Below are positions 42,077 to 63,142 of a stretch of 64,000 nt of DNA, one piece after another; position 1 is the first letter of the stretch; each line of letters starts with the position of its first letter. The notes beneath the pieces were generated by a model that had not been told where the DNA came from, searched no databases, and saw only the letters and a program-made list of their open reading frames with translations. Position numbers and translations under genes: made by a program. Source of the DNA: Microcaldota archaeon (lineage in GTDB: Archaea; Micrarchaeota; Micrarchaeia; Micrarchaeales; Micrarchaeaceae); contig JAGWHO010000001.1 in the NCBI GenBank assembly GCA_028866715.1, positions 62,001 through 126,000 of the forward strand, read 5' to 3'.

Positions 42077-43429
42077 CTACTCATAGCGTAGCTTTTCTCC
42101 TTTTGGCAATATCTCGGCACGTACAAGTGAATCGTGTTGCGATGTATACTCAGTATCAAAGATTCGATAGCATAGAGTACCCACAAACACATCAACTAGC
42201 ACCAGAGACCTTACGTTTATTCCACTTACATTTTTCTTTAGCATTTCTATTGTGAGACTAAGATCACTTTCCTTGAATACGGGGAGGACAAACATCTCAC
42301 CGTTAGGCATTGTGACGTCACCCACCAATGAGTACCTGTTGGTTGGGTAAGTCGATTCGCCTATGATTTCTGCTAGCAGGTTATTTCTTGTCTTCAGGAG
42401 TTCGTGTGCATTTAACACATCTGCAAATATTATGGCGTTGTACTTTATGGGCAACGCAGACATGGTTGCGGTAATCCTTTTTATGATACCCTTTTTATCC
42501 TTGAGCGCGTGGTATAAGTATTGAGAACGGCCGCGATCAAAGCCATTCTTTATATCAATACTCACAAATTCTTCCGCTCCATTCCGAGTTAGTTCTTTAA
42601 GCAGTGTGTATTCGTTCAATGTAAGCTGGGCAGGCCGCGGCCTGGTCTGGCCCTTACTTTTTCTCCAGACGTTTTTCTCAAGGATACCGAAGAATCGATC
42701 CCTTATGGGCACCATCCCGAATGTCTTCTCGAATGGCACTAAGTACCATTCGGACACATATTTGTTAAGTTTCTCGTTTGTCCTTATGGTATAAAGATGA
42801 GTTTCTGCCTCCCTGTTGTTTTCCGCAAGCATATATATGAATAGGTCGTACTCCCCTATTGCAAGCGCAGCCAGTTGCACACTTGGTTCTGGATCAAGCA
42901 CAGCCATAAGGTCCTCGCGCCTTGGCTTCTCTCCTTTGAATTTGACAAACACGGCGTAGTCTAGGTACCCTAATTTGCTAAGGTTCAATTCGGGCAGATA
43001 TCGGAACCCGAGCTTGTTCTCAAAATTTTTGATCCTGTTGAATATGGTGGATCTTTTTACCCCTGTTATGGCTTCTAAACGCGATAGTGTGGCTCTTGCG
43101 TTCATACTGAGGGAGGTAAGCAGCAGACGGTCCTCAGCATCTATGCTACCATTTAGGTGTTGTTCCCCCATCTCGCGAGGCCTTCCAGAAACTACTGCTT
43201 TTGCCGTTGACATTAGATTGGCAGACTGTTTTTCTGCATAGGTTCCATCCGTAGCTATTCTGCCGATATACACTGATTTGCTCTTAACCCTCTTGTTTAT
43301 TTTATCCCAACCAGTGGTAACGTTATAGACATAGTAGTTTCCGTTTATGAGTTTCAGGTACACAGAGAACTCGTATGCTTTCTTTACTCTCTCAAATGTG
43401 TCCAATACTACCTTAGGCGGAGTTCCCAT
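42077..43429 (-). CDS. Double-module Lrp/AsnC-like regulator (paralog)
   Basis: The 450-residue protein has the same layout as the one at 34773-36095: transposase-like hairpin (INGNYYVYNVTTGWDKINKR, YIGRIATDGTY), first HTH (DRLLLTSLSMNARATLSRLEAITGVKRSTIFNRI), RAM-like domain, second HTH-like region and a C-terminal domain (YSLVGDVTMPNGEMFVLPVF). The promoter is AT-rich (ctttaaatatatag) and an inverted repeat lies just upstream (43477-43503), a likely operator for autoregulation. It is divergent from the peptide-modification operon and so could control it. Confidence 0.75.
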   Translation of the reverse strand: MGTPPKVVLDTFERVKKAYEFSVYLKLINGNYYVYNVTTGWDKINKRVKSKSVYIGRIATDGTYAEKQSANLMSTAKAVVSGRPREMGEQHLNGSIDAEDRLLLTSLSMNARATLSRLEAITGVKRSTIFNRIKNFENKLGFRYLPELNLSKLGYLDYAVFVKFKGEKPRREDLMAVLDPEPSVQLAALAIGEYDLFIYMLAENNREAETHLYTIRTNEKLNKYVSEWYLVPFEKTFGMVPIRDRFFGILEKNVWRKSKGQTRPRPAQLTLNEYTLLKELTRNGAEEFVSIDIKNGFDRGRSQYLYHALKDKKGIIKRITATMSALPIKYNAIIFADVLNAHELLKTRNNLLAEIIGESTYPTNRYSLVGDVTMPNGEMFVLPVFKESDLSLTIEMLKKNVSGINVRSLVLVDVFVGTLCYRIFDTEYTSQHDSLVRAEILPKGEKLRYE

Positions 43430-43796: not shown

Positions 43797-43934
43797 ATGG
43801 GTTTCTTCAAGCGACTGATAGGCAGTAGAAAAGATAGCAATGCATCGTTCGGTGCAGACAGTAGGAAGATACGAGTCATAAAGACCAGTGATTACTCTTA
43901 CCAATTGGTCTGGGCTGACCAGGTGCTGCGATGA
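43797..43934 (+). CDS. 45-residue protein at the head of the RiPP-like operon
   Basis: The small basic protein begins MGFFKRLIGSRKDSNASFG and ends with a beta-like IRVIKTSDYSYQLVWADQVLR. Its TGA overlaps the next gene's ATG (ATGA at 43931), the best evidence that it is translated. It was not recognised; a peptide-binding (RRE-like) or chaperone role would fit the operon but is not shown. Confidence 0.45.
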   Translation: MGFFKRLIGSRKDSNASFGADSRKIRVIKTSDYSYQLVWADQVLR

Positions 43935-44092
43935 ATGCCGCGGAACGCCTCAAGAAAATGCACGACGACGTAGAAGAGATGAACGTTATGCTGCCTGAGC
44001 TGCACGAGACGCTGCCGAGGAACGATTATTACAGATTGAAGCAGCTGCTTGAGGAGCTTGAGAGTATATTGAAGAGGTACGCTAATGGGTGA
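43931..44092 (+). CDS. 53-residue helical protein in the RiPP-like operon
   Basis: The protein is two amphipathic helices (MNAAERLKKMHDDVEEMNVM and DYYRLKQLLEELESILKRYA) around a proline-containing turn, likely a helical hairpin or coiled coil. It overlaps the genes on both sides, the following peptide gene by 8 bases if the first ATG at 44085 is used, and so is surely part of the operon. It was not recognised. Confidence 0.65.
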   Translation: MNAAERLKKMHDDVEEMNVMLPELHETLPRNDYYRLKQLLEELESILKRYANG

Positions 44093-44096
44093 GGGA

Positions 44097-44342
44097 ATGA
44101 ACGAGACGAAACAGATGAGCATAGACAAGAATGAGATAGCGAGGAGCATGGGCACATACCTAAGGGTCGACGAGAGCGGCAAGGTGCAGGTCGCAGGAGT
44201 AGCAGAATCGGCTATAGATGCGCTGACCAGAGAGGCACTGCACAACATACCGTGCGGGGTCGGGTGCCCGTGCCCAGGGGGCTGCGTCGACATAAAGCAG
44301 CAGGTTAAGAAGGGGCCTGACGACATTTCAGATATGAAATAA
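44097..44342 (+). CDS. Candidate precursor peptide with CxxxCxCxxxC core
   Basis: The ATG at 44097 has ggtgagg just ahead, a strong ribosome site, giving 81 residues. The first 50 (IDKNEIARSMGTYLRV, GVAESAIDALTREAL) look like a leader. The core IPCGVGCPCPGGCVD carries four cysteines (53, 57, 59, 63) in a Gly/Pro-rich context, followed by a charged tail. A radical SAM gene starts 11 bases after its stop. Cys-rich cores next to radical SAM/SPASM enzymes are typical of thioether (ranthipeptide/sactipeptide) precursors. A small metal-binding protein is the alternative. Confidence 0.6.
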   Translation: MNETKQMSIDKNEIARSMGTYLRVDESGKVQVAGVAESAIDALTREALHNIPCGVGCPCPGGCVDIKQQVKKGPDDISDMK

Positions 44343-44353
44343 ATGGTGTGCCA

Positions 44354-45439
44354 ATGTACGCAAACAATAGGGACAACGCTATAACGGACTTCCTGAACAA
44401 GTACTTGGAGCTGATAATCCTCCCGACCGAGGCATGCAACTTCAGGTGCGATTACTGCTTTGAGGATCACGCAACGGATGGAGGCATCCGCCCTGATGTG
44501 GTTCTAGGCATAAAAAACCTGATAACGAAAAGGGCCCAGGATCTCGAAAGGGTTACGGTGCAGTGGTACGGAGGGGAGCCGCTGCTGAGATACGACGCGA
44601 TAACGGATATAATGGGGCATCTGCAGGGCCTTGTAAACGCCTCAGGCGGAAGGCTCTCCGCGAGCGGCACGGCGACAACAAACGGATATTTCCTGACAGC
44701 GGAGAGGCTCGCCTGCCTTGTGAAGCTCGGCGTCACAGACTACCAGATAACTCTTGACGGGAACAGGGAGGAGCACGACAAGCTCAGGAAGAGAGCGGAT
44801 GACGCCGGGACATTTAACACCATATGGCGCAACCTTGTCGCGGCACACGACACAGGCCTGGATTTCTCGATAATGGTACGGCTGCACGTGAATAGGGACA
44901 ACGAGAAGAGCATGGGCTCGCTGCTGCACAGGCTATATCACGACATGGGAAATGACAAGAGGTTCACGGTTTACATAAGGCAGCTTTCCAGGCTCGGCGG
45001 CCCGAACGATGCGTCCCTGCCGATAACTGATAGCCTGGATTCTGTAAACAGGCTCAGGGGGCTCGCAAGATCGCTGGGTTTCGGATTCCCTGACATCGAC
45101 GTGCATGAGGCAGATCCCAAGTACGTATGCTATGCGGCAAAGCCGTTCTCGTATATGATAAGGCCTGATGGAAGGATAGGCAAGTGCACAGTGGCACTGC
45201 GCAGCGAGCAGAACACCATAGGCAGGATCAACCCCGACGGCACTATGGAGATAGACAGCGATAAGGCGGCGTGGTGGAGCAGGGCCATCTTCACCGGGGA
45301 GAGAAAGGCGCTCATATGCCCAAGCCAGGATCTTGAGCTTGTGGAGCCGCCAAAGCTGCTAAGGATAGCCAGCGTTAGCGAGTCTGCCATGAAGAGAGGG
45401 GATACCGCAGTTTCTGCGGCATTGTCAAAGAGTTTTTAA
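44354..45439 (+). CDS. Radical SAM/SPASM-like peptide maturase
   Basis: The 361-residue protein has the radical SAM cluster CxxxCxxC at residues 28, 32 and 35 (TEACNFRCDYCFE), the GGEP-type motif WYGGEPLL at 71-78 and the barrel motif YQITLDGNREEHDKLR. A reduced SPASM region has Cys259, Cys278 and Cys322 (KYVCYAA, RPDGRIGKCTVAL, IGRINPDG, LICPS). This is the architecture of enzymes that form thioether or C-C links in ribosomal peptides. Position directly after the Cys-rich peptide gene makes that peptide the likely substrate. The ATG at 44354 is preferred over the GTG at 44348. Confidence 0.85.
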   Translation: MYANNRDNAITDFLNKYLELIILPTEACNFRCDYCFEDHATDGGIRPDVVLGIKNLITKRAQDLERVTVQWYGGEPLLRYDAITDIMGHLQGLVNASGGRLSASGTATTNGYFLTAERLACLVKLGVTDYQITLDGNREEHDKLRKRADDAGTFNTIWRNLVAAHDTGLDFSIMVRLHVNRDNEKSMGSLLHRLYHDMGNDKRFTVYIRQLSRLGGPNDASLPITDSLDSVNRLRGLARSLGFGFPDIDVHEADPKYVCYAAKPFSYMIRPDGRIGKCTVALRSEQNTIGRINPDGTMEIDSDKAAWWSRAIFTGERKALICPSQDLELVEPPKLLRIASVSESAMKRGDTAVSAALSKSF

Positions 45440-45440
45440 T

Positions 45441-47483
45441 ATGCCGATACGCAAGCCATATAGGCACAAAGGTCGGGATGGTATTGAAATGAGGGACGAT
45501 AGCATCGAAAGCTCTGATGCAGACATTGTGGCAGCCTATGGCGGCAAAGGAGCCAACCTCATGAGGCTTAAGGCTGCGGGCTTCGACGTCCCGGATTTCT
45601 TTGTGCTGCCAGTCTCAGCGTTCGAGGAGTTCGTCAGCGACAACTTTACGGCGGTAGGGTCCGTGGCTATAGGCCGCAGAGACATCAAAGAGGCACTGCC
45701 CAAAATGAGATTCAGGGCAGAGGCAGCAGAGCGCATATTATCAGAGTATGACAGGGCCTTTGGCGGCGGCAAAGTAGCGATCAGGAGCTCCGCGGTGAAC
45801 GAGGATGGCAGCAGCGCCAGCATGGCGGGAGAGTACCGAACCGTGCTCTCTGTTGAAAGGGAGTCGCTGCTTGAGGCTGTCAAGGAGGTCTACGCATCAG
45901 CCCTCTTCCATACGGACGAGCGACTTGCGGACGCGCTTATGGCTGTAGTGGTGCAGCGCCAGATCGAGCCGCACAAGGCGGGTGTTGCCTTTGCTGACAG
46001 CAATAGAGTCGTCATAAACGCAATCATAGGGCAGGGCGAGAGGGTAGTCTCAGGGAAAGAAAGTGGCGATGCGTATCTAATTGAAAACGATGGCATTCGC
46101 AAAAGCATAAAGCGCCAGCACAAGATGAGCAGCGACGGGACCAACATCTCGGACGTTCCACTGCAAGTTGCCGCTAGCCAGAAGCTGATGGAGTACGAGA
46201 TCAAAGAGATATCGGACATGGCAAAAAGAGTGCAAAAAACATTTGGGGCGCCGCAGGATATAGAGTGGTGCATAGACTCCGGGGGCCTGCTCCTGCTGCA
46301 GGCTCGCCCCATAACAAGGAGCGTTGATGTCCCTTCATTCGAAAGGAAGGACGGCCTGATGCCCATCTGCGCAGGCATAGCGGAGGGAGCGCCATGGACC
46401 GACGCGAAAGTGACTCCAGATACTGACGTGATACTCGTCGGCACGTATTTCGAGCAGCGGGATATTGCCAGGCTGCTCGGGAGCGGCCGCGTGAAGGGCA
46501 TGATAACGCAGATTGGAGGGATACTCTCCCACGAGGGCATACTGGCGCGCGAGCGCGGGATACCGTATCTGGCCGGAGTAAGCAACCCCGAAGAGCTGGT
46601 CAAGTCCGCAAAAACAGTAGTCCTGGACACGGCAAACGTAAGGGTGATTGCAGACGGTCGCGACGTATTGGACCAGCGCGGAGACACATACACATGGCTT
46701 GACAGGGACATTGGGGGATTGAGGTCGATACGGTTTGCAGGAGGGGGCGAGTACGGCGTGGTTGCCAGATTGATGGGGGGTTTCGCCGTCGTCTACTCTA
46801 ATGTGCGGAGCCGCAGCGCCTATGACAAGATTCTGCGCGCGCTCTCCATGCAGAACGTCTCCGCAGTTGTCTGCAACGTTGAGGATCGGACGCTTGAGGT
46901 CGCGTACAAAAACTCCATCAACATCATAAACTCGGACGCAGGCCTTAGGAGCAGCGTCAGCAGCATGACAGACGCGGTAAGGAGGTTTGACGCTGATGCG
47001 TTTACTGCCGCATTTCTGCTTGCGAAGGACGCAGCCAAGCGCGAGTTTGAGGGCGCCAGGCTGTCGTTCCAAGCGTATGAGTCAAGGCCTTCGCCTGATA
47101 TGTTGAGGGCGGCCTTTAAGGTATTCGCCAGGGCGAACAGCTTCTACAAAGGGGTCTGCCTGATGGGCAATTACTTTGAATATGCGCTTGGCGTCTCCGC
47201 AAGCGAGAAGGCAGGAAGGGTTGTAAGCGACGTTGAGATCCACAGGTTCAGATCTGAGTATGAGAGGTCATGCCCTGAGATAAAGCGCACAGAGGAAGCA
47301 GTAGGGCAGGCCATAGCCGAGCTTGACGGATCGCTGCCAACGTTTGGTGATGGCGCTTCATCGCTCGAGGGGCTGTACAGCATGTTGATGGACGCTGCAA
47401 AAGGCGTTTTAGGTGCAGAAGAGGTGTCGTCGCTGCTATGCGGCATTGAGTATGAACCTCTGCAGAATGATGCGCATCTATAA
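45441..47483 (+). CDS. PEP synthase / rifampin phosphotransferase-like dikinase
   Basis: The 680-residue protein has a PPDK-type ATP-grasp domain (about 28-292: YGGKGANLMRLKAAGFDVP, VAIRSSAVNEDGSSASMAGEY, WCIDSGGLLLLQARPITR). A swivelling phosphohistidine domain follows, with His364 in QIGGILSHEGILARERGIPYLAGV. The last 280 residues do not look like the PEP/pyruvate barrel of PEP synthase. The enzyme would use ATP to phosphorylate its histidine and pass phosphate to an unknown substrate, as rifampin phosphotransferase does. It is 1 base after the radical SAM gene, so the substrate may be the modified peptide. Confidence 0.82.
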   Translation: MPIRKPYRHKGRDGIEMRDDSIESSDADIVAAYGGKGANLMRLKAAGFDVPDFFVLPVSAFEEFVSDNFTAVGSVAIGRRDIKEALPKMRFRAEAAERILSEYDRAFGGGKVAIRSSAVNEDGSSASMAGEYRTVLSVERESLLEAVKEVYASALFHTDERLADALMAVVVQRQIEPHKAGVAFADSNRVVINAIIGQGERVVSGKESGDAYLIENDGIRKSIKRQHKMSSDGTNISDVPLQVAASQKLMEYEIKEISDMAKRVQKTFGAPQDIEWCIDSGGLLLLQARPITRSVDVPSFERKDGLMPICAGIAEGAPWTDAKVTPDTDVILVGTYFEQRDIARLLGSGRVKGMITQIGGILSHEGILARERGIPYLAGVSNPEELVKSAKTVVLDTANVRVIADGRDVLDQRGDTYTWLDRDIGGLRSIRFAGGGEYGVVARLMGGFAVVYSNVRSRSAYDKILRALSMQNVSAVVCNVEDRTLEVAYKNSINIINSDAGLRSSVSSMTDAVRRFDADAFTAAFLLAKDAAKREFEGARLSFQAYESRPSPDMLRAAFKVFARANSFYKGVCLMGNYFEYALGVSASEKAGRVVSDVEIHRFRSEYERSCPEIKRTEEAVGQAIAELDGSLPTFGDGASSLEGLYSMLMDAAKGVLGAEEVSSLLCGIEYEPLQNDAHL

Positions 47484-47490
47484 TAAACGC

Positions 47491-48150
47491 ATGATGAATA
47501 GGATGTACATGGTCGGACATATGGAGAGAGATGGAAGAGCGGCGTATGCAGGCAGGCTTGCTGGGAGGGGCAGACTCAAGGTAAATGTGTCACTAGGCAG
47601 CGTGTCGATATCGCAGGGCAGCCCGCACATCGTTGTCAGCGGCGCACCAGGGTCTTACAAGATAACACAGGCCAAGAATGAGGTGGCAATAAGCGGCAGG
47701 GGATGCCGCATGCGCATCAGATACCCGAAAGACGCGGATATCGATGCCAGCGTAAATGGCGGCGGCCTGTCCATAGATGGGATGACACCGAAGAGGCTGA
47801 AGGTGCGCATATCGAACGGGGGCGCCAATATAAGGTGCGTTCGTCTCCCGGAAATCACCGCTGATATAAATTCCGAGAGTGGAGGAGTGAGGGCAATGCT
47901 GGGGTTTGCTAGGTCCGCAGGCAGGTCAATGATAAGCATAAAGACCAGATCAAGCGCCGTGGCACTTGGGATAAAGGCCGGCAAGTCGGATGTTATAGGC
48001 ACAAAGATCAGGCAGTCCGATTCTCTTGTCAGGGCGCCCAGAAACGGATATGGGAAGATACTCGTGAAGGTCGATTCAGCAGACAGCGCCGTCTTCATAG
48101 GAAGGAAGACTGCCATACCCAGAAACATTGCCTCCTTGGTCACTAGATGA
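47491..48150 (+). CDS. Beta-solenoid (DUF4097-like) protein
   Basis: The 219-residue protein is repetitive beta strand with regularly spaced Gly/Ser/Asn turns (IVVSGAPGSYKI, NGGGLSIDGMTPKRLKVRISNGGANIRC, INSESGGVRAML), like the DUF4097 putative adhesin solenoid. There is no signal peptide or membrane helix, so it appears cytoplasmic unless exported another way. It begins 7 bases after the dikinase gene and closes the operon. It could scaffold the enzymes or bind the product; this is inferred. Several ATG codons (47491, 47503, 47509) could be the start. Confidence 0.65.
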   Translation: MMNRMYMVGHMERDGRAAYAGRLAGRGRLKVNVSLGSVSISQGSPHIVVSGAPGSYKITQAKNEVAISGRGCRMRIRYPKDADIDASVNGGGLSIDGMTPKRLKVRISNGGANIRCVRLPEITADINSESGGVRAMLGFARSAGRSMISIKTRSSAVALGIKAGKSDVIGTKIRQSDSLVRAPRNGYGKILVKVDSADSAVFIGRKTAIPRNIASLVTR

Positions 48151-48200: not shown

Positions 48201-48308
48201 AGCCCCAAGAGGGAATTGAACCCTCGGCCTTTTGCTTTATAGGTTTTTGATTAAACTTTTTATCAAAAAGTTTACCATGCAAACGCTCTACCACTGAGCT
48301 ACTGGGGC
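48201..48308 (-). tRNA. tRNA-Thr (anticodon GGU) with 36-base intron
   Basis: The minus strand has acceptor GCCCCAG/TTGGGGC, D arm GCTCAGTGGTAGAGC, anticodon stem TTTGC/GCAAA and T arm GAGGG-TTCAATT-CCCTC, with discriminator U as expected for threonine. Between the anticodon stem arms there are 43 bases, starting ATGGTAA, so an AT-rich intron of 36 bases lies at or near the canonical 37/38 site. The 5' 21 bases overlap the 3' end of the ATPase gene (stop at 48288). Confidence 0.9.
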
Positions 48309-61995: not shown

Positions 61996-62056
61996 TGTGT
62001 TTGCGTATATCAGAGGATTTCAGTTAAGTTAATATATTTGGCATGGCCAATTGTTG

Positions 62057-63142
62057 ATGGTTGATACATTGGGTAATACTAAGAAGTTTGTCGGATTGGG
62101 CCTCACTGCTTTAAGGAGCAACGTATCCAGGCTCGACAAGCCGTATAAGCTAAATTTCGCCACGACTTATTGGTGCCAGTCAAGATGCCTAACGTGCAAC
62201 ATCTGGCAGATGAAGCCTAAAAACGAGCTCAGGATCGATGAGATAAACGAGTTCGCTAAGAAGAACGATCATTTCAGATGGATAGGCATAACAGGCGGCG
62301 AGCCGTTCATGAGAAGCGATGTAGTCGATATAGCTGACGCCTTCATGAAGAGCTCGAAGGACCTTTATCTTGTTACAATACCGACAAACTCCCTGTCAGA
62401 TCAGAAGATGGTCATCAGCAAGATAGAAAAGATGCTTCAGCTCGGGATACCTAAGCTCTCCATAACGCTGAGCCTTGACGGGAGCAGGGAGCTGCACGAC
62501 AGGATAAGAGGAGTGCCAGGCAACTTCGACAGGGTTATGGGCGTAGCGAGGACGCTTAGAGAGATGCAAAGACAATACAGCAACCTGTTCTTCATATTCG
62601 GATATACGATGAGCAGGTACAACCATGGGGCGCTTGGGCATACCTGCAGGTCGGTTATGCATGAGGTTCCCGGCACGAAGTACAGCGACTTCCACATAAA
62701 CCTCAGCCACAACTCCAGCATATACTACAACAACATTGGCATGGAGATAGCGGCTGACAGGATGATAAACTCTGCTGAGCTGGAGGGCTTCCTCAACAAA
62801 AGAGAGCGAGAGATGAGCGTGATACAGTTGATTGAAACGGTTTTCCTGAAGAACCTGATAAACTATGCAAACACCGGCAAGCCTCCTGTAAAGAGCAGGA
62901 GCCTTGACGCATCGCTGTTCATGGACAGCTTCGGGAACGTCTATCCGTCGATACAATGGGATAGGAAGATAGGCAACATACGCGATACTGCATACGACCT
63001 TGCGCCTATATGGAACGGCACGCAGGCGGAACAGGCAAGGAGGATAATAAGCGAGGGCAACGACCCGGGGTCATGGACTGCGTGTGAAGCCTACCAGTCT
63101 ATAGTTGGCCATCTCCCTAGCTTCGCCTCTCTTTTGAGCTAA
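62057..63142 (+). CDS. Radical SAM protein, unknown substrate
   Basis: From the ATG at 62057 the protein is 361 residues. It has CxxxCxxC at 40, 44 and 47 (TTYWCQSRCLTCNIW), the GITGGEPFMRSDVV motif and LSITLSLDGSRELHDRIRG. A shortened C-terminal part (FMDSFGNVYPSIQWDRKIGNI, then WTACEAY) keeps one cysteine and so lacks a full SPASM cluster pair. It follows the GT-C gene by 61 bases, with a TATA-like taatatatttg between, and may act on a glycan or lipid. No peptide gene was seen beside it. Confidence 0.8.
   Translation: MVDTLGNTKKFVGLGLTALRSNVSRLDKPYKLNFATTYWCQSRCLTCNIWQMKPKNELRIDEINEFAKKNDHFRWIGITGGEPFMRSDVVDIADAFMKSSKDLYLVTIPTNSLSDQKMVISKIEKMLQLGIPKLSITLSLDGSRELHDRIRGVPGNFDRVMGVARTLREMQRQYSNLFFIFGYTMSRYNHGALGHTCRSVMHEVPGTKYSDFHINLSHNSSIYYNNIGMEIAADRMINSAELEGFLNKREREMSVIQLIETVFLKNLINYANTGKPPVKSRSLDASLFMDSFGNVYPSIQWDRKIGNIRDTAYDLAPIWNGTQAEQARRIISEGNDPGSWTACEAYQSIVGHLPSFASLLS

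Follow-up and report, generated by a model that had tools for sequence, protein, structure and literature searches.

A short radical SAM enzyme and its Cys peptide: a probable ranthipeptide-like cassette in small archaea, bacterial plasmids and phage contigs

Described maturases and the archaeal peptide-enzyme pair

In the streptococcal ranthipeptide NxxcA, a RaS-RiPP (a ribosomally synthesized and post-translationally modified peptide, RiPP, that depends on radical S-adenosylmethionine, SAM), a thioether links Cys23 to the beta-carbon of Asn20 (PMC8326336, PMC13361665). Here we describe a gene pair of the same kind, a Cys peptide and a radical SAM (rSAM) maturase, from an archaeon of the Micrarchaeales. 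The pair is located in a stretch of 64,000 nt (the window), where the cassette region comprises positions 43797-48150. The analysis indicates that the cassette probably encodes a RiPP of an unnamed archaeal and bacterial family, with a ranthipeptide-like product in which a beta-thioether would connect Asn50 and Cys53. As expected for a RiPP, a short precursor with leader and core lies beside a modifying enzyme and both are conserved together; as in NxxC-type ranthipeptides, Asn occupies position -3 of a core Cys. The family, its co-occurrence, motifs and conserved cysteines were computed in this work. In open-access papers we found no rSAM RiPP system described for these small archaea.

The likeness to NxxcA/NxxcB consists of the Cys peptide, the rSAM maturase and the Asn at -3 of Cys. 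NxxcA has one bridge, whereas the cassette family has a DxxG[RK] leader and cores with up to six Cys. Unlike NxxcB, the cassette enzyme has neither a RiPP recognition element (RRE) nor a full SPASM domain, and the two were likened by motif, not by direct sequence comparison. The hosts differ as well, as the cassette family spans archaea, Streptomyces, rhizobia and phage contigs.

The best NCBIfam scores were obtained with TIGR04463 (rSAM_vs_C_rich) and the CefA/CefB (Cys-every-fifth) system, with which the cassette shares a Cys-rich substrate; the closest models were TIGR04463, Clo7bot, CefB, PapB and geopeptide. The TIGR04463 scores of 131-142 bits were far below the cut-off of 525 (130.8 bits for the archaeal enzyme, 142.2 for a bacterial relative), and no match covered the initial ~65-75 positions of the model or its second SPASM half. 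The catalytic domain begins at about residue 20, and TIGR04463 is unmatched before position 77. The maturases PapB (freyrasin) and CteB (SCIFF ranthipeptides) have a homologous rSAM core (PapB 5e-22; CteB 7e-19) and form thioethers to a non-alpha carbon, the chemistry predicted for the cassette. The thioethers that PapB and CteB form end at Asp or Thr, and CteB possesses both an RRE and a complete SPASM domain, unlike the cassette enzyme.

The features of the peptide-enzyme core are:

44097-44342, + strand: precursor Cys peptide of 81 aa with CGVGCPCPGGC; an alternative in-frame start at 44085 gives 85 aa
44160-44186, + strand: LRVDESGKV (residues 22-30), the leader motif, whose Asp25 and Gly28 are shared by all 15 peptides aligned from archaea and bacteria
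44244-44285, + strand: core NIPCGVGCPCPGGC, residues 50-63, with Asn50-x-x-Cys53 as the beta-thioether pair predicted from NxxC enrichment and the NxxcA precedent
44354-45439, + strand: short rSAM peptide maturase, starting with ATG; a GTG start at 44348 is also possible

GG-rich elements preceding the genes, together with alignments of homologues, pointed to the likely starts of the peptide (44097), the enzyme (44354) and a solenoid protein further downstream (47521); a GGTGA element lies just 5' of the peptide ATG. A preliminary description had seen six packed or overlapping genes of one direction in the region, and all six open reading frames (ORFs) were confirmed on the + strand at 43797-48150. 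As for their expected co-occurrence, peptide and rSAM gene recur together and form the core, while the dikinase and two tiny upstream genes do not belong to it. Domain searches gave no match for any of the small proteins of the locus.

The enzyme matched Radical_SAM of Pfam with E 8e-15. Counted from ATG 44354, it has the motif C28xxxC32xxC35 and the auxiliary cysteines C259, C278 and C322, and all of these are invariant across 13 aligned enzymes. Thus the radical SAM assignment held, whereas of the SPASM-like character only half did: in place of the seven-Cys motif with two auxiliary clusters we found three auxiliary Cys, which is Twitch-like, and the second SPASM half is absent in the short forms of the enzyme. 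The enzyme itself has no N-terminal RRE region; no search was aimed at a standalone RRE protein encoded elsewhere. Matches to solved structures were led by rSAM enzymes that modify proteins or peptides (anSME, CteB, ChlB) and included SuiB.

The precursor peptide and its predicted bridge

The leader motif conserved in the peptide family is hxhDxxG[RK]h. In 15 aligned peptides Met1, the leader Asp and Gly and one Cys are invariant, and a second Cys is nearly so. Past the leader motif, the peptides have 2-5 Cys at gaps of 2-14, which ruled out the invariant four-Cys core proposed before. The peptides matched no known family, the best being NF033629 with E 0.0099 for one member. At 7 of 8 rSAM loci tested we found a small ORF that combines the leader motif with at least 2 Cys. 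Of 2000 dinucleotide shuffles made for each locus, 0-11 contained such an ORF, so that at each of the seven loci at most 0.55% of the shuffles carried a motif ORF. The two peptide genes of genome G112 differ at codon positions 10/8/24, a pattern which indicates that selection acts on the protein sequence. In a further relative, G144 (L016:7456-8565, - strand), the rSAM enzyme carries the leader-like SFDKFGRLVF as an in-frame N-terminal fusion, and no separate peptide was found at this locus. An AlphaFold model of the fusion had a predicted local distance difference test value (pLDDT) of 83, with ~86 for the leader-like residues 11-20. The fusion and the pairing of peptide and enzyme support the small Cys protein as the likely substrate, and the thioether-peptide logic of the preliminary description fits.

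In 11 of 15 peptides the residue at -3 from the first core Cys is Asn, a motif that the preliminary description had not named; this count was reached in 0 of 5000 shuffles and exceeds the maximum of 10 in core-only shuffles. Across all Cys of these peptides, Asn at -3 occurred in 20/45 and Gly at -1 in 22/45. Peptides from viral contigs (L123-L125) were read only after the motif had been found and thus served as a held-out test. Here, 14 of 22 Cys had Asn at -3, as against a shuffle mean of 3.4 and a maximum of 10 (0/10000). The window peptide has NxxC once, Asn50-x-x-Cys53; its other core Cys are residues 57, 59 and 63. Because of the NxxcA precedent at the same spacing, i.e. by motif analogy, we predict a bond between Asn50 and Cys53.

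We infer the mode of leader binding and the bond chemistry as follows. A predicted leader hairpin with hxhDxxG[RK]h would be bound directly by the rSAM enzyme, a proposal made because the enzyme has no RRE region. The CxxxCxxC cluster together with SAM would give rise to a 5'-deoxyadenosyl radical, which would abstract a hydrogen at C-beta of Asn50. Cys53, whose thiolate may be bound by a three-Cys auxiliary cluster, would then close the thioether from Cys-S to C-beta of Asn, as NxxcB does on NxxcA. Several NxxC units in a peptide may lead to several bridges. Leader removal and export would be left to proteins outside of the minimal cassette.

Several observations weigh against this assignment. 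Other acceptors are likely, since NxxC fits just one of four Cys in the window peptide, is absent in the G085 and G081 peptides and has other spacing in G105. Asn is frequent in these cores, and in the held-out set the offsets -4 and +2 were likewise enriched, partly because the cores are repetitive. Some held-out peptides have a degraded leader motif with N or S replacing D. Furthermore, the permutation tests ignore kinship and the peptides are not independent. Direct binding of the leader, finally, is proposed from the lack of an RRE and a model segment from one sequence. The same pair might instead form alpha-thioethers as in sactipeptides or catalyze, e.g., an epimerization, with NxxC being only a recognition or turn motif. 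The rSAM families with Cys-rich substrates do cover several chemistries, the closest models leave the bond type unfixed, and Asn-Gly-rich cores are prone to turns. On the other hand, Asn precedes Cys by exactly three residues, for which NxxcA is a precedent, and this spacing is conserved across phyla and in the held-out set. Thus we hold a different chemistry to be unlikely and favor the beta-thioether.

Spread in archaea, on plasmids and in phage contigs

The search covered first the order (164 genomes) and then the phylum (301 genomes). Of the 301, 10 contain the rSAM enzyme; they come from two families of one order. Convincing peptide or leader matches were obtained at eight of the 10 rSAM loci and nowhere else in the 301 genomes. 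This supports the earlier view of the small Cys protein as the likely substrate of the adjacent enzyme, and Cys-gene homologues apart from an rSAM gene, which would have spoken against it, were not found in convincing form. The remaining profile matches were weak (E > 0.003); one was inspected (G139) and had neither rSAM nor such a peptide, and the rest were taken as chance. Besides the window, peptide and rSAM gene are paired in five archaeal genomes, with two leader-motif, Cys-ending ORFs beside the enzyme in G112, two in G089 and one each in G064, G085 and G081. G105 has one peptide downstream, after the solenoid, and only an rSAM fragment; G128 also holds a fragment, and the G080 contig ends within the rSAM gene.

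The search for bacterial relatives covered mainly collections of plasmids, phages and viral contigs. In tblastn searches of plasmids the enzyme gave 24 records, the best being nearly full-length with 35-41% identity and coming from Streptomyces, Sinorhizobium, Acetobacter, Bradyrhizobium and Deinococcus. An adjacent leader-motif Cys peptide was found in four of these five lineages inspected, namely Streptomyces, Sinorhizobium, where it is unannotated, Acetobacter and Bradyrhizobium. The Deinococcus enzyme is longer with extra C-terminal Cys, and no leader-motif Cys peptide was found at its plasmid locus. In the plasmid records the enzymes go by 'radical SAM protein' alone, and the peptides are either labelled 'hypothetical' or missing. 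A scan of viral contigs had no match with the window enzyme as query and yielded five loci with the Streptomyces enzyme. Two of these cassettes (L123:3989-5186 and L127:3983-4558) adjoin terminase genes, in L123 also portal, and L124:3200-5000 follows directly after tail genes, which suggests that the cassette is carried on phages as accessory cargo. L125:5020-5940 (frame 1) encodes an unannotated peptide with the five NxxC units NAGC, NGSC, NSGC, NGGC and NAGC, accompanied by a second peptide and then two ORFs resembling permeases. As phage contigs and plasmids of bacteria carry the pair too, the notion of an archaeal-only system had to be given up, an origin in archaea alone being ruled out by the plasmid relatives.

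PQQ and mycofactocin peptides are matured by rSAM enzymes into cofactors. By analogy, the Cys peptide could be an intracellular metal-, cluster-binding or cofactor-like peptide that is matured by the rSAM enzyme and not exported. An exporter or signal peptide was indeed absent in most archaeal loci read, and short C-terminal Cys pairs occur among the archaeal peptides. Yet the spread is patchy (10/301), copies have decayed (G098, G105, G128) and the cassette is carried on plasmids and phage contigs, so that it looks like a dispensable trait of conflict or communication, not a cofactor. In addition, an ABC/HlyD/TolC set adjoins the Acetobacter cassette. An intracellular role therefore appears rather improbable to us. 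The preliminary description had seen no protease or exporter; this is correct for the window locus, but relatives carry such genes in the form of an M16 peptidase after the rSAM gene (G064), a transglutaminase-like protein (G089) or the Acetobacter set. The G144 locus has a second rSAM enzyme and an FkbM methyltransferase.

Dikinase, solenoid and neighbouring genes

The other features of the region are:

45441-47483, + strand: dikinase of 680 aa with PPDK_N and phosphohistidine mobile domain; accessory gene
47521-48150, + strand (ORF open from 47413): DUF4097/toastrack-like beta-solenoid of ~209 aa; recurrent rSAM partner
43797-43934, + strand: 45-aa ORF; relatives adjoin Lrp/AsnC-like regulators; outside the peptide-system core
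43931-44092, + strand: 53-aa helical ORF; relatives adjoin Lrp/AsnC-like regulators in the loci read; outside the core
42077-43429, - strand: divergent Lrp/AsnC-like regulator of 450 aa; weak HTH_AsnC match, E 0.055; context only

With phosphoenolpyruvate (PEP) synthase, pyruvate phosphate dikinase (PPDK) and rifampin phosphotransferase the dikinase shares the ATP-grasp and phosphohistidine domains (PPDK_N 5.5e-47, PEP-utilizers 6.4e-12) and conserved catalytic residues: the ATP-grasp residues and the catalytic His364 are invariant. It differs from PEP synthase and PPDK in that the PEP/pyruvate-binding barrel is replaced by a C-terminal domain of 270 aa. This domain is mostly helical and had no Pfam or PDB match (best E in the fold search 0.18), in keeping with the novel domain proposed before. 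Recoding via an in-frame TGA in the G160 and G125 dikinases was rejected, as the place of the TGA fits an ordinary terminal stop. Tandem pairs of divergent PPDK_N-type dikinases were seen in other genomes of the order (L057:8020-12293 and L059:8222-11746).

The preliminary description had envisaged a dedicated archaeal pathway with the dikinase as a core partner that phosphorylates the cross-linked peptide. In G000 and G112 the rSAM and dikinase genes are adjacent with a 1-bp gap or a short overlap, and the enzymes of these two genomes group together in the rSAM tree (support 94/95 or 98/97). In the dikinase tree the clade (G000,(G112,G114,G098)) had a support of 97/97. Directly upstream of its intact dikinase, G098 has a C-terminal rSAM remnant of 57 aa with 79% identity (L054:9835-9993, - strand), which points to a longer shared history of the two genes. 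These points and the invariant active-site residues agree with a joint pathway. Yet the dikinase is absent at the loci of G089, G064, G085, G081 and G144, which do have an intact rSAM gene and peptide or leader; full-length orthologues exist in seven genomes (G114, G160, G125, G061, G149, G150, G151) away from any cassette-family rSAM gene; and the G098 dikinase has outlived its rSAM. No dikinase was present in any bacterial locus read and the C-terminal domain was absent from plasmids. A role as core partner was thus ruled out on distribution, and a dedicated phosphorylation pathway is very doubtful. The dikinase looks like a one-time recruitment, an optional gene in one clade. It is a long shot that the dikinase of the G000/G112 clade takes the cross-linked peptide, before or after its release, as substrate and generates a phosphorylated, thioether-bridged archaeal RiPP; if true, this would be a new tailoring reaction and a new acceptor domain of dikinases.

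The solenoid protein has a repetitive Gly-rich strand pattern similar to the DUF4097/LiaG 'toastrack' proteins, but at the sequence level the similarity falls short of significance (E 0.15; 11.8 bits, where the Pfam gathering threshold is 22.9; hhalign p 0.019 for its profile against bacterial DUF4097). In the order (164 genomes) only G000 and G105 have it, each time within the rSAM locus, and the two proteins are 22% identical (E 3e-17). In Bradyrhizobium a DUF4097 gene directly follows the rSAM gene, with a LiaG-family score of 47 bits. So the proposed DUF4097 assignment, by itself not significant, is supported by a homologue in the same gene context, whereas the opinion that such a gene is foreign to RiPPs did not hold: the solenoid/DUF4097 gene is a recurrent partner of the rSAM enzyme (G105, Bradyrhizobium). 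An Elusimicrobia metagenome-assembled genome (L011:5719-9146) has consecutive genes for an rSAM/SPASM maturase, an M50 protease (daptide/LiaK-like) and a LiaG-like DUF4097 protein. Like the role of every other accessory, that of the solenoid is inferred; scaffold or self-protection would be a guess.

The two tiny upstream genes, previously counted as operon members, belong to another module. Their relatives adjoin Lrp-like regulators, not rSAM genes, which ruled out a part in the pathway; those of the 53-aa ORF are multicopy in two genomes. A regulator similar to that at 42077-43429 lies beside the related cassette of G089. Small helical or RAM-like proteins were observed beside divergent Lrp/AsnC-like regulators of 340-450 aa in L106, L107, L112-L114 and the window (43797-44092), possibly an undescribed regulatory module that recurs in the order. 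A tRNA gene with a probable intron is located ~50 bp past the solenoid (48201-48308, - strand); it was found by Rfam and missed by ARAGORN. With tRNA-adjacent integration in mind, we noted tRNAs at a distance of no more than about 70 bp from three loci (window, G114 and G120); in the latter two they flank the dikinase loci. The window also holds a second, different radical-SAM-like ORF with CQSRCLTC at 62051-63142.

Taken together, archaea, Streptomyces, rhizobia and phage contigs share one leader motif, one predicted Asn-x-x-Cys bond and a minimal enzyme that has neither RRE nor full SPASM domain. The chemistry is directly testable in E. coli, for which natural peptides with as many as five NxxC units are available from the family.

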